From assembly GCF_041381155.1 (NCBI RefSeq), contig NC_091142.1:8675340-8739339 (forward strand): 64,000 nt of DNA, read 5' to 3'. This DNA is from Argopecten irradians. Lineage: Eukaryota > Mollusca > Bivalvia > Pectinida > Pectinidae. Below are positions 12,601-18,600 of this stretch, one piece after another. Within the stretch, counting starts at the first letter, position 1, and each line of letters opens with the position of its first letter. A program made the position numbers and the translations under genes. Under the pieces are notes generated by a model. The model had not been told where the DNA came from and ran no database searches. It saw nothing but the letters and a program-made list of their open reading frames with translations.

Positions 12601-15600
12601 TTTACAATAATATATTATTAGTTATTACCCTTTATTATTGGATCTTGTGAACATGATGATTTGGATAAATATTAACTTAGCCTAATGATATTTTGTATAC
12701 AGTCTATCATCATCAAAATTTTTAATAGGTTTGAAAGTTAGACTTATAATGTATTCGACCATAACTTATGGATTCATTGCTCTTATGTTATTACTATGTT
12801 TGATCATTTTATAATACAGGCTGTATATATATTTATGATTTGTAGGTGCCTACCACAGTCTTCACTCCATTAGAGTATGGAGTCGTTGGTATATCTGAAG
12901 AAACCGCAAATGTTACATTTGGAGACAGCAATATAGAGGTATGTAACTAAGATAGTAACTAACAGATTTTTTTTTCCAATGGAAAAAAAATGTTACAAAT
13001 CATGTGTTATAATGCTCGTGGAAGTAACTCAACTTTGAACATGGTGATCTCTAGGATTGATGATGATAATGAAGTTGAATTTGGTGGCAGCGATGGGATC
13101 ATATTTTGTTGAATTTGCATTTAGTGGCAGTGGTGTGTGTATTTTGATGAAGTTACATTTGGTGGCAGTGGTGGGATCATGTTTTGATGAATTACATTTG
13201 GTGGCAGTGGTGTGTGTATTTTGATGAAGTTACATTTGGTGGCAGTGGTGGGATCATGTTTTGATGAATTACATTTGGTGGCAGTGGTGGGATCATATTT
13301 TGATGAAGTTACATTTGGTGGCAGTGGTGGGATCATGTTTTGATGAATTACATTTGGTGGCAGTGGTGGAATCATGTTTTGATGAAGTTACATTTGGTAG
13401 CAGTGGTGGGATCATGTTTTGATTAAGTTACATTTGGTAGCAGTGGTGGGATCATGTTTTGATTAAGTTACATTTGGTAGCAGTGGTGGGATCATGTTTT
13501 GATGAAGTTACATTTAATGGCAGTGGTGGGATCATGTTTTGATGAATTGCATTTGGTGGCAGTGGTGGGATCATGTTTTGATGAATTGCATTTAATGGCG
13601 TTGGTGGAATCATGTTTTTGTGTTTGGCTTACTTCTGTATTGTTGGATCAACGTTCATTTTGTCCACCCAGAGATAGTAAAATTAAAATATGTGTCTCGT
13701 GCACTTTTCGGTGATAAACCAATTGAATAGTTATCAACCTCAGCAAATGTTAGGAAATTATGATGATGATGATGATGATGATAATGATGTGATGATGATT
13801 ATGATGATGATGAATGATGTGTTGAAAATGATGATGATGATGATGATGTGATGATGAATGATGTTGAATGATAATGATGATGATTGTCCTAGTATGATAC
13901 CTGGGGCATAGGGGTGGATTATGCCTATCAGGGATTCAAAGATTTGTAAGTTACAAGATACAATAGGGGCTTATGACAAGAACTTGGCGGATTCAAAAGA
14001 CATAGTACCATTACGAATGACGAATCTCTTGTAGTACAAGTTATGTCCAGTGGTACTATTACTTATGAACTGGCTCCAGCTAATAATGTGTTGTCAGTGA
14101 TAACGGAGGATTTGCGGATTCTTTTGACGCAGGATCTTGTCGAGCCAGTTTTCTTTCCTCTGCCTGGGGATCAGGAAAAGGCTCTTGCATTGAAGGAGGA
14201 AGTCAGGATCATGCTCCACAAGGGTGCGGTCTATGAGGTTCCTTTGGAGGGATGTGCGCCCTGATTATACTCCAGAATGTTTCTGGTTTGGAAGATATCC
14301 GTCCCATAATCGATCTTGTTTGTAAGAAGCAGGTGGAAACTCCTCTCTTCCAGATCTGATAACAGCAGAGGAAAATCTACTTGTTATGTGTTTTGTTTAT
14401 GTGATAACTTTGTTTGTGATTTATCCAACAAAGAAGCAAACATGTAGAACATTTGTTTGAGAAATGTAGAGGGATTTGTTTGTCCCAACAACGATGTAGG
14501 CTAGACGGACATGGTCTAGTATACTTGAGATATTGAGACGTAGGGTTGAAAGAGGATATGTAAGACAGAAAAGCCATTCAAGCTGTCATTGGTTGCTGTA
14601 TTGGAAAAAATCGCAAAGCTCTTTTCTGTACCAACGACCAACAATAAAACAACGTTATAATAAAAAAAAGTTGGTAATTCCTGGTATTATACAAATGTAC
14701 CTTAGATTTGGATGTAAAATTGAACCTGTGGATGCTTCACAATCACGATTTTTGACAAACTTTAGTGTTGGTTGGGTTTTCCCGCTATAGTTGTACCATG
14801 TGTTGTAACTCCATTTGGAGTAGATTATATCCTGCTTGTATTTTCAATCTGTAGGTGTACCATGCTTTCTACACACCTTTGTAGTAGATTATATCCTGGC
14901 TGTGTACTGTTTTCTCGCTTAAAGTGTACCGTGCATTTTACATCCCTTTGAAGTAGATGGTATCCTGGTTGTGTTTTTCCCGTTTTAGGTGTACCATGCA
15001 TTCTACGTCCCTATGGATTAGATTGTATCCTGGTTGTGTTTTCCAATCTAGTGGTGTACCATGCATTCTACATCCCTTTGGAGTAGATTAAATCCTGGTT
15101 GTGTTTTCCAATCTAGTGGTGTAACATGCATTCTACATGCCTTTGGAGTAGATTATATCCTGGTTGTGTTTTCCAATCTAGTGGTGTACCATGCATTCAA
15201 CATCCCTTTGGAGTAGACTATATCCTGGTTGTGTTTTCCAATCTAGTGGTGTACCATGCATTCTACATCCTTTTGGAGTAGATTTTATCCTGGTTGTGTT
15301 TTCCAATCTAGTGGTGTACCATGCATTCTAAATCCTTTTGGAGTAGATTATATCCTGGTTGTGTTTTCCAATCTGGTGGTGTACCATGCATTCTACATCC
15401 CTTTGGAGTAGATTATATCCTGGTTGTGTTTTCCCACTTTAGGTGTACCATGCATTCTACAACCCTATGGATTAGATTATATCCTGGTTGTGTTTTCCAA
15501 TCTAGTGGTATACCATGCATTCAACATCCCTTTGGAGTAGATTATATCCTGGTTGTGTTTTCCAATCTAGTGGTGTACCATGCATTCTACATCCTTTTGG

Positions 15601-18600
15601 AGTAGATTATATCCTGGTTGTGTTTTCCAATCTAGTGGTGTACCATGCATTCTACATCCTTTTGGAGTAGATTATATCCTGGTTGTGTTTTCCAATCTGG
15701 TGGTGTACCATGCATTCTACATCCCTTTGGAGTAGATTGTATCCTGGTTGTGTTTTCCAATCTAGTGGTGTACCATGCATTCTACATCCTTTTGGAGTAG
15801 ATTATATCCTAGTTGTGTTTTCCCACTTTAGGTGTACCATGCATTCTACAACCCTATGGATTAGATTATACCCTGGTTGCGTTTTCCCTCTATAGCTGTA
15901 CCGTGCATTCTACATCATTTTGAAGTAGATTATATCCTGGTTGTTTTTCCAATCTAGTGGTGTACCATGCATTCTAAATCCTTCTGAAGTAGATTATATC
16001 CTGGTTGTTTTTCCAATCTAGTGGTGTACCATGCATTCTAAATCCTTCTGAAGTAGATTATATCCTGGTTGTGTTTTCCAATCTGGTGGTGTACCATGCA
16101 TTCTAAATCCTTCTGAAGTAGATTATATCCTGGTTGTGTTTTTCCCAATTAGTGGTGTACCATGCATTCTAGATCCTTTTATCCTGCTTGTATTTTCCCA
16201 CTTTAGGTGTACCATGCATTCTACGTCCCTTTGGAGTTCGCCATACCAGGACGGGATGCGACTCAGTGTTACATCAAAGTAAGTTCTAACATAAGTTATT
16301 TACTTCCTGTTAACATGTTCTTTATGTACTTTCTTATGCAGTTGAAGTTTGTTTACAAAGAAACCATATTTACTAAAAAAGTAAATAAAGCAAAAAGACA
16401 TTGGATGAAAACGAATATCTATTAAAAATTTCCATATTTCTCTATTTATTATTGAGTATTGTTACCTGTTCTGCCATATGAATGATAAGTGAAGAATGAA
16501 TCTATCTATATATATGAGGTTTGATCTTTTTGTTAGTGTTAAATGTGTTTAATATAATTCATTTGATAGCCTAATCACAAACATTCGTAATGAGAACTAA
16601 TCGTTTATCACATATTTACCCAGGTGATCTGTGAGAAAGGAGACGACGGCCGAGTCTTGGGCATTCATCTCACTGGACCCAACGCTGGAGAGATCATCCA
16701 AGGATTCTCCGTGGCAATAACGTACGTATTTCTCCTCTAGTACTCTTCAGTCCTGCTTCGTGCTTGGTGACATGTAGTTGTTTTCTAGTAATCTCCACTA
16801 TTGCTTTGTGCTTGGTGACATGTCGGTTTCTCTAGTAATCTCCAGTATTGCATCGTGCTTTGTGACTTGTAGTTATTCTCTAGTACTCTCCAGTATTGCT
16901 TTGTGCTTGGTGCCATGTCGGTTTCTCTAGTAATCTCCAGTATTGTTTCGTGCTTGGTGACATGTAGGTTTCTCTAGTAATCTCCAGTATTGCATCGTGC
17001 TTGGTGACATGTAATTGTTTTCTAGTAATCTCCAGTATTGCATCGTGCTTGGTGACATGTAGTTGTTTTCTAGTAATCTCCACTATTGCTTTGTGCTTGG
17101 TGACATGTCGGTTTCTCTAGTAATCTCCAGTATTGCATCGTGCTTGGTGACTTGTAATTGTTTTCTAGTAATCTCCAGAATTGCTTCGTGCTTAGTGACA
17201 TGTAGGTTTTTCTAGTGATCTCCACTATTGCTTTGTGCTTGGTGACATGTAATTGTTTTCTAGTACTCTCCAGTATTGCTTAGTGCTTGGTGACATGTTG
17301 GTTTCTCTAGTAATCTCCAGTATTGCATCGTGCTTGGTGACATGCGATTGTTTTCTAGTACTCTCCAGTATTGCGTTGTGCTTGGTGACGTGTAGTTGTT
17401 TTCTAGTACTCCAGTATTGCTTCGTGCTTGGTGACATGTAATTGTTTTCTAGTAATCTCCAGTATTGCTTTGTGCTTGGTGACTTGTAGTTATTCTCTAG
17501 TACTCTCCAGTATTGCTTTGTGCTTGGTGACATGTCGGTTTATCTAGTAATCTCCAGTATTGCTTCGTGCTTGGTGACATGTAATTGTTTTCTAGTAATC
17601 TCCAGTATTGCGTTGTGCTTGGTGACGTGTAGTTGTTTTCTAGTACTCTCCAGTATTGCTTCGTGCCTGGTGACATGCAATTGTTTTCTAGTACTCTCCA
17701 GCATTGCTTCGTGCTTGGTGATGTCTCGTTGTTTTCTAGTACTCTCCAGTATTGCATCGTTCTTGGTGACGTGTAGTTATTTTTAGTACTCTCTAGTATT
17801 ACTGCCTGCTCGGTTGCATGTAGTTATTCTCAAGTATTCTCCAGTCCTGCTTTGTGCTTGGTGATGTGTAGTTGTCCTACACTCACTTTAATTTCTGAGA
17901 TAGCCTGACATAAACATTGCTATAAATGGGTAATTTATAATCGTAGTGTTGGTTATTAGTGTCAAAATGATAAAACGTTTGAAAACAGGTGTTGGGATTA
18001 CATATATGTAAGAACAATTGTAAGTTTTAGTTCAACAAGATAAAAGTATTGCGCTAGTGCACTAAAAGTTATACCATTCATTATTGAGTAAACAGACCCA
18101 AATTTTTGTGTATCAATTTTACCTTATTTCCATTGATGACACCAAAATGATCATTTATTTATTTATTATACATGATTTTATCGATAAATTCTGTTATTTT
18201 TCCAATACATAACTTTGAAATTGATAACTTTGTCCGAAACGTGTAATCTCTAGCAATTTGGCCTTGAGATAGGTATTACTAGTGCTATCATTTTCTTTCA
18301 GGACACCCTAACGCCTTATATGAAATTTTGTTAACTAATAAAACTGAGAGGACTTAATCACTCAGCAGAGATAGAAACAGATTAATTGACGACGGACGTC
18401 CTTGACCGATGTCAATCATCGAAATATATTTAATATTTGTATATAAATAAACATTAAGTTAACAGCTTGTTCAATATCGCCATTGGATTTAACATAACGA
18501 ATGGCTATTCATTGTTTCCACTTGGTGTGACCCTTTCAGTCCTTTGATCTGTCCATGGTACACAGATGTAATTGATGCTGGCTTAGGCTTGGGATGTAGT

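Follow-up and report, generated by a model that had tools for sequence, protein, structure and literature searches.

Minisatellites that span exon-intron boundaries are known from amphioxus, where they have been called mirages. They occur in Adh (Adh3) and in the globin genes BflGb6 and BflGb9, with units of 10-160 bp, and reverse transcription-PCR suggested that they leave splicing undisturbed (PMC3087553); mirages in troponin C, together with similar repeats in PGBD5, come from a further report (PMC3902484). Here we describe an array that very probably belongs to the same class, in a thioredoxin reductase (TXNRD) gene of the scallop Argopecten irradians. It lies in a 64,000-nucleotide stretch of contig NC_091142.1 (assembly GCF_041381155.1, positions 8,675,340 to 8,739,339 of the forward strand; hereafter the window, in whose numbering positions are given), immediately before an exon that we call exon n. 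The main features are as follows.

676..19749, forward strand: TXNRD gene, of which 16 exons are covered and the 5' end lies upstream of the window (from exon joining and a match to TRX reductase)
14767..16206, forward strand: array n, in which the 3' splice region and opening ~30 nt of exon n recur 22 times in tandem (from TRF, BLAST and copy spacing)
16207..16278, forward strand: real exon n of TXNRD, encoding 24 aa, with acceptor CACTTTAG upstream and donor gtaagt downstream

Amphioxus mirages and the scallop arrays have in common that tandem duplications cross either boundary while the authentic exon stays intact, and that many, although not all, of the repeats keep their AG or GT. The host and the genes differ, and in array n the exact acceptor has been lost from most copies. 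The window does not resemble amphioxus: a striated-type myosin encoded in this genome includes a 101-residue piece that matched PDB chains 1dfk_A and 1dfl_A, from the bay scallop Argopecten irradians, at 101 of 101 residues. The view of the initial annotation that nothing of this kind had been described does not hold, given the amphioxus mirages (PMC3087553, PMC3902484).

The authenticity of exon n follows from the gene as a whole. When joined, the 16 TXNRD exons, whose borders were set by eye with the aid of what is known of the enzyme, gave one open reading of 490 aa that stops before an in-frame TGA; all acceptors were AG, and the donors were GT with the exception of one GC. The best solved relative of this protein was mitochondrial thioredoxin reductase 2 (residues 3-490, E 1.2e-204). 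Because the 24-residue translation of exon n aligned with thioredoxin reductase 2 without a gap, the exon is part of the enzyme, and in the 490-aa reading both the exon and its own splice site are intact, as in amphioxus mirages. Thus, the proposal that the array was seeded by a splice site and coding sequence of a conserved enzyme stands; the exon had been numbered 14, and this number is uncertain, as the gene begins upstream of the window.

Upstream of exon n, Tandem Repeats Finder (TRF) reported a repeat at 14792-16180 with a period of 65, 21.4 copies and 88% matches, and BLAST with the letters of exon n returned 22 upstream matches to its first 26-31 nt (E 9e-10 to 0.011). The copied exon starts are given in two lines.

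First half of array n: 14791, 14855, 14924, 14989, 15054, 15119, 15184, 15249, 15314, 15379, 15443
Second half of array n: 15508, 15573, 15638, 15703, 15768, 15832, 15896, 15960, 16024, 16089, 16155

The 22 start-to-start steps measured 65 nt in 13 instances, 64 nt in six, and 69, 66 and 52 nt once each. The final step, that of 52 nt, leads into the real exon n, and the array accordingly runs up to it without a gap, as had been claimed. Every copy has a copy of the intron tail ahead of its exon-derived letters, and hence the unit spans the exon-intron boundary, with letters of exon n and intron tail recurring 22 times; at ~65 bp, it falls within the size range of the minisatellites known as mirages. 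The exon-derived 30 nt of the copies were 0.77-0.97 identical to exon n (median 0.90). This similarity lies beyond chance: in the intron upstream of exon n, 20 windows agreed with the exon start at 24 or more of 30 positions, compared with a maximum of 0 in 50 Markov resamples, and the consensus of array n scored 58 against exon n, whereas dinucleotide shuffles averaged 14.9 and none of 300 reached that score. When 14 exons were compared with their own upstream introns, such windows were found only for n (20) and for exon e (3). TRF, BLAST and resampling together therefore confirm the initial count of about 22 tandem ~65-bp copies of an acceptor region plus exon start.

The units of array n differ by substitutions and small indels. 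Mean identity between units was 0.832 at lag 1, 0.770 at lag 4 and 0.816 at lag 6, the last value marking a weak repeat-of-repeats. At codon positions 1, 2 and 3, the exon-derived 30 nt showed 10, 7 and 13 distinct changes, respectively, and the copies are therefore under no coding constraint. All 22 run into an in-frame stop, 14 of them a TAG at codon 11 and the other eight earlier, in agreement with the statement that most units place a TAG soon after the copied codons. A DNA search of the assembly found array n once in the genome.

We examined the copied acceptors by the register of the AG and by a position weight matrix (PWM) built from the gene's other 15 acceptors. The AG was in exact register in 6 of the 22 copies (14791, 14855, 14989, 15443, 15832 and 15896). 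In 12 others it lies two bases early (TAG|TG) and in one a base late, and three copies lack it; a stricter aligner shifted two copies, hence its count of 8 of 22 with AG intact versus 6 of 22 in register. The real exon n site scored 6.1. Five copies scored 6.1-8.8, and scores of 6 or above were found for 3.8% of the remaining intronic AGs in the TXNRD gene (n = 766); the sixth in-register copy scored 3.5, the 12 two-bases-early copies 0.7-4.1 and one copy -1.1, the remaining three having no AG to score. The description of the array as over twenty near-identical acceptors was thus overstated. Nearest to exon n, the copy at 16155 scored 0.7, that at 16089 lacks an AG, and those at 16024 and 15960 both scored 4.1; the nearest copy that matches the strength of the real site lies 311 nt upstream of the exon.

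The TXNRD gene contains a second array of this type, at exon e, and a possible third.

4537..4831, forward strand: array with a unit of ~59 bp, in which the acceptor region and start of exon e are matched five times; copied starts near 4555, 4612, 4671 and 4730, and a truncated copy near 4782
4832..4910, forward strand: real exon e of TXNRD, 26 aa
13069..13618, forward strand: 14 copies of a 40-bp unit that agrees with the end of exon m (12846-12938) at 15 of 17 letters

The exon e array scored 56 against a shuffle mean of 17.3. Five copies were matched by BLAST, and four were kept by the stricter aligner, which drops candidates below 0.62 identity; in those at 4612 and 4730, GG replaces AG. 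The 40-bp array is only a possible third, perhaps old, junction-seeded case: its similarity to exon m had the lowest p value that the shuffles allow (1 in 301), but among 150 comparisons; it comprises 17 letters only, and BLAST with exon m gave no match at E <0.2. Three further candidates in this gene were set aside. A 48-bp array of ~24 copies at 16736-17875, which begins 14 nt past the end of exon o, seemed junction-seeded on inspection but was not counted, as its exonic similarity did not exceed that of shuffles (p 0.16); an exon source was not supported for a 34-bp array at 11098-12405, where the best of 15 exons was distant (p 0.010); and the end of exon c, with one 26-nt match of 81% identity in the next intron and no BLAST match at E <0.2, was not counted.

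To place array n in a genomic context, we surveyed 80 loci, of which 30 were kinase exons, 30 were myosin exons and 20 came from the TXNRD query, as well as 20 chaperonin exons. Of the 142 kinase, 82 myosin and 59 chaperonin rows, this partial sample takes in 30, 30 and 20, respectively, and AMP-binding rows were left out; splice borders were inspected at eight loci and TRF was run at three. Near copies were present at 12 of the 80 loci, among them L042 and L046, which are exons n and e. Four loci were dropped because their matches had no coding letters (L038), at most 13 coding nt (L062), 7 coding nt (L068) or lay away from the junction (L070), and none of the 30 kinase loci yielded a junction case. 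Curation left 11 cases in the genome, two in TXNRD and nine further, with 1-24 extra copies each and 86 in total; six are on the acceptor side and five on the donor side, and they occur in TXNRD, a TXNRD paralog on contig C12, myosins and a chaperonin gene. The cases outside TXNRD are listed below.

L041, TXNRD paralog, contig C12: one exon with arrays on both sides, 49 bp at the acceptor (2 extra copies) and 85 bp at the donor (13 extra)
Another exon of the TXNRD paralog, contig C12: 44-bp array at the exon end, 10 extra copies
L078, myosin exon, contig C5: array of period 60 nt in which the intact acceptor and the exon start recur in at least 24 extra copies, as far as the edge of the locus
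Other myosin loci: L056 with 3 extra copies, L073 with 1 and L074 with 1
L085, chaperonin: two exon ends, with 3 and 3 extra copies

Cases with a single extra copy are lone duplications and not arrays. According to TRF or the spacing of copies, the other regular cases have units of ~40 to 123 bp, and over the 11 cases the splice dinucleotide was intact in 68 of the 86 extra copies. With 22 extra copies in array n and at least 24 at L078, the scallop arrays are long compared with the 3 and 6 units of the two BflGb6 haplotypes.

Taken together, the letters of the array and its relatives make it very likely that array n is a mirage, that is, an intronic minisatellite whose founding duplication crossed the junction by chance and whose copies are mostly without effect. 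The array is real and striking, and probably harmless rather than a new mechanism. Its history would have begun with a tandem duplication of ~65 bp across intron tail and exon head, followed by expansion through slippage or unequal exchange with partial homogenisation. Every copy except the last would remain intronic and be removed with the intron, leaving the array free to grow without change to the protein, provided that the acceptor nearest the exon continues to be the one used. The last acceptor would still be used because only that copy runs into the complete exon and its donor gtaagt; exon definition favours an acceptor that is followed by an entire exon and its donor. In array n, the near-exon copies would also be weaker competitors, or lack an AG altogether. 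Low-level use of the copies may occur, in which case the transcripts would contain a stop or a frameshift. Other introns of the genome have undergone the same process, both where exons begin and where they end.

In an alternative view, minisatellites are born preferentially at exon-intron junctions, for example through a process linked to transcription or splicing. Within TXNRD, 30-nt blocks with a same-strand copy within 1.5 kb numbered 82 of 253 in introns, 2 of 28 at exon ends and 0 of 13 inside exons. Junction-crossing copies were found at 8 of 168 exon ends (4.8%; TXNRD 2/28, TXNRD-like 2/13, myosin 3/55, chaperonin 1/37 and kinase 0/35), compared with 17.24 of 766 intron points (2.25%), each intron point being weighted by 1/(1+copies) because one seed yields many intronic copies. 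This difference is in favour of preferential birth, as are the 11 curated cases, not all of which were detected by the automatic test. In fact, the exon-end rate is a lower bound because L078, one exon of L085 and the acceptor side of L041 were missed; the junction-crossing test omits matches shorter than 45 nt and a stricter block test those shorter than 66 nt, and both omit ends without a nearby in-frame stop, which loses many kinase ends. However, without TXNRD the count falls to 6 of 140 exon ends against 3.1 expected (Poisson P ~0.09), the stricter block test gave 5 of 164 (3.0%) versus 8.27 of 399 weighted intron blocks (2.1%; 45 unweighted), and an exon-anchored seed is conserved and hence easier to recognise. 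Exon edges thus seem to be included at roughly the rate at which a founding copy arises at any intron point, or perhaps at twice that rate, and such near-equal rates fit random seeding at little cost. We therefore regard preferential birth at junctions as unlikely.

In a second alternative, selection acts against the decoys, and copies with good acceptors close to the exon are lost because they cause mis-splicing. The four copies nearest the exon are indeed weak, and in array n the splice dinucleotide was changed at 14 of 44 positions, compared with 155 of 968 elsewhere in the seed. Yet the 12 two-bases-early copies look like one homogenised variant and are therefore not independent events, five strong copies among 22 would all miss the last four with a chance of ~0.33, and outside array n the trend is the opposite, the dinucleotide being changed at 4 of 128 positions versus 215 of 2419 elsewhere. 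We consider such selection very unlikely.

Also very unlikely is the view that the array controls splicing, with the decoys competing so that some transcripts are spliced upstream, meet a stop and are degraded, and with array length tuning TXNRD output. The six in-register AGs, five with scores at or above that of the real site, would suit such a role, as would the predicted outcome of splicing within the array: in silico, 59 of the 60 AGs in 14771-16204 lead to a stop no later than 60 nt into the exon, and the remaining one, 34 nt upstream of exon n, is out of frame. A decoy regulatory element should nevertheless maintain its acceptors, and with exact AG in 6 of 22 copies, array n has lost register in 16; furthermore, similar arrays occur in unrelated genes at approximately the weighted rate of intron points, and the amphioxus reports point to undisturbed splicing. 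Finally, inflation of a short array by collapsed or chimeric reads is scarcely credible, as the units differ from one another at many positions, the window lies within a 44-Mb contig and the array is present once in the genome.

Several observations count against the reading of array n as a chance mirage with largely ineffective copies. The matrix was built from 15 sites of one gene, and the real exons i, k and p scored only -2.2, 0.4 and 0.8. With only 5 of 22 copies strong, the weakness of the near-exon copies may be due to chance. Outside array n, the splice dinucleotide was intact in 60 of 64 copies (24 of 24 at L078, and 30 of 30 on the donor side across the survey); because copied sites elsewhere are mostly intact, weak decoys would not explain in general why splicing should stay correct. 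Further, copies were present at 92 of 766 unweighted intron points versus 8 of 168 exon ends, and the rates become comparable only after weighting for copy number.

Related arrangements are known outside amphioxus. Internal tandem repeats of human segmental-duplication genes are mostly minisatellites, some at an exon-intron boundary and linked to splice-site changes; these repeats sit in exons and lengthen them or create introns, whereas the scallop arrays enlarge an existing intron (PMC2812944). Tandem duplications that create introns likewise copy splice signals, but within coding sequence, so that a new intron results. Human IFI6 (6-16) carries a minisatellite of tandem splice donors beside an exon, and some of its copies are used; its repeat is a short donor repeat, whereas the unit of array n joins an acceptor to 30 nt of exon. 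In the literature on repeats and splice junctions we found no molluscan mirage, in a search that covered few subscription papers and does not show absence. An abalone gene has a polymorphic 27-bp intronic minisatellite, and the part of its description available mentions no junction.

Other features of the window are noted for completeness. In the TXNRD gene, the intron following exon b has its GC donor at 1619 (CG|GCAAGT), and an inverted repeat at 9025-9346, with 79-nt arms that are 94% complementary and 164 nt apart, lies in an intron and looks like a small inverted-repeat transposon. The gene ends (19740-19749) on the in-frame TGA in the context GC-TGA-GG, which we take to be the selenocysteine codon in the usual context of the enzyme; no selenocysteine insertion sequence (SECIS) element was confirmed, and Rfam at gathering scores was empty across the window. 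Beyond the gene, 31504-34536 is a 3-kb minisatellite of ~62 copies of a 50-bp unit. When ten other open frames were compared with Pfam, a single frame accounted for the two weak matches obtained, and a frame at 36234-38171 (645 aa, stop to stop) had no match at E 0.01.

Overall, the results extend junction-spanning minisatellites from amphioxus to a scallop, where the longest array has at least 24 extra copies, and provide a natural test bed for how splicing picks one of many near-identical sites. Use of any of the 11 exon-proximal copies at L078 would, in silico, lengthen the exon by a multiple of 60 nt with the frame kept and no stop, and mis-splicing at these copies would put multiples of 20 residues into the myosin motor. 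A broader view, which we hold to be speculative and rather doubtful, is that junction-seeded minisatellites are common and approximately neutral across the molluscan genome, that splicing routinely ignores dozens of near-perfect decoys, and that some arrays, in frame and open like that of L078, may supply length-variable isoforms or new introns. Arrays at junctions would also be raw material for a proposed route to new introns.

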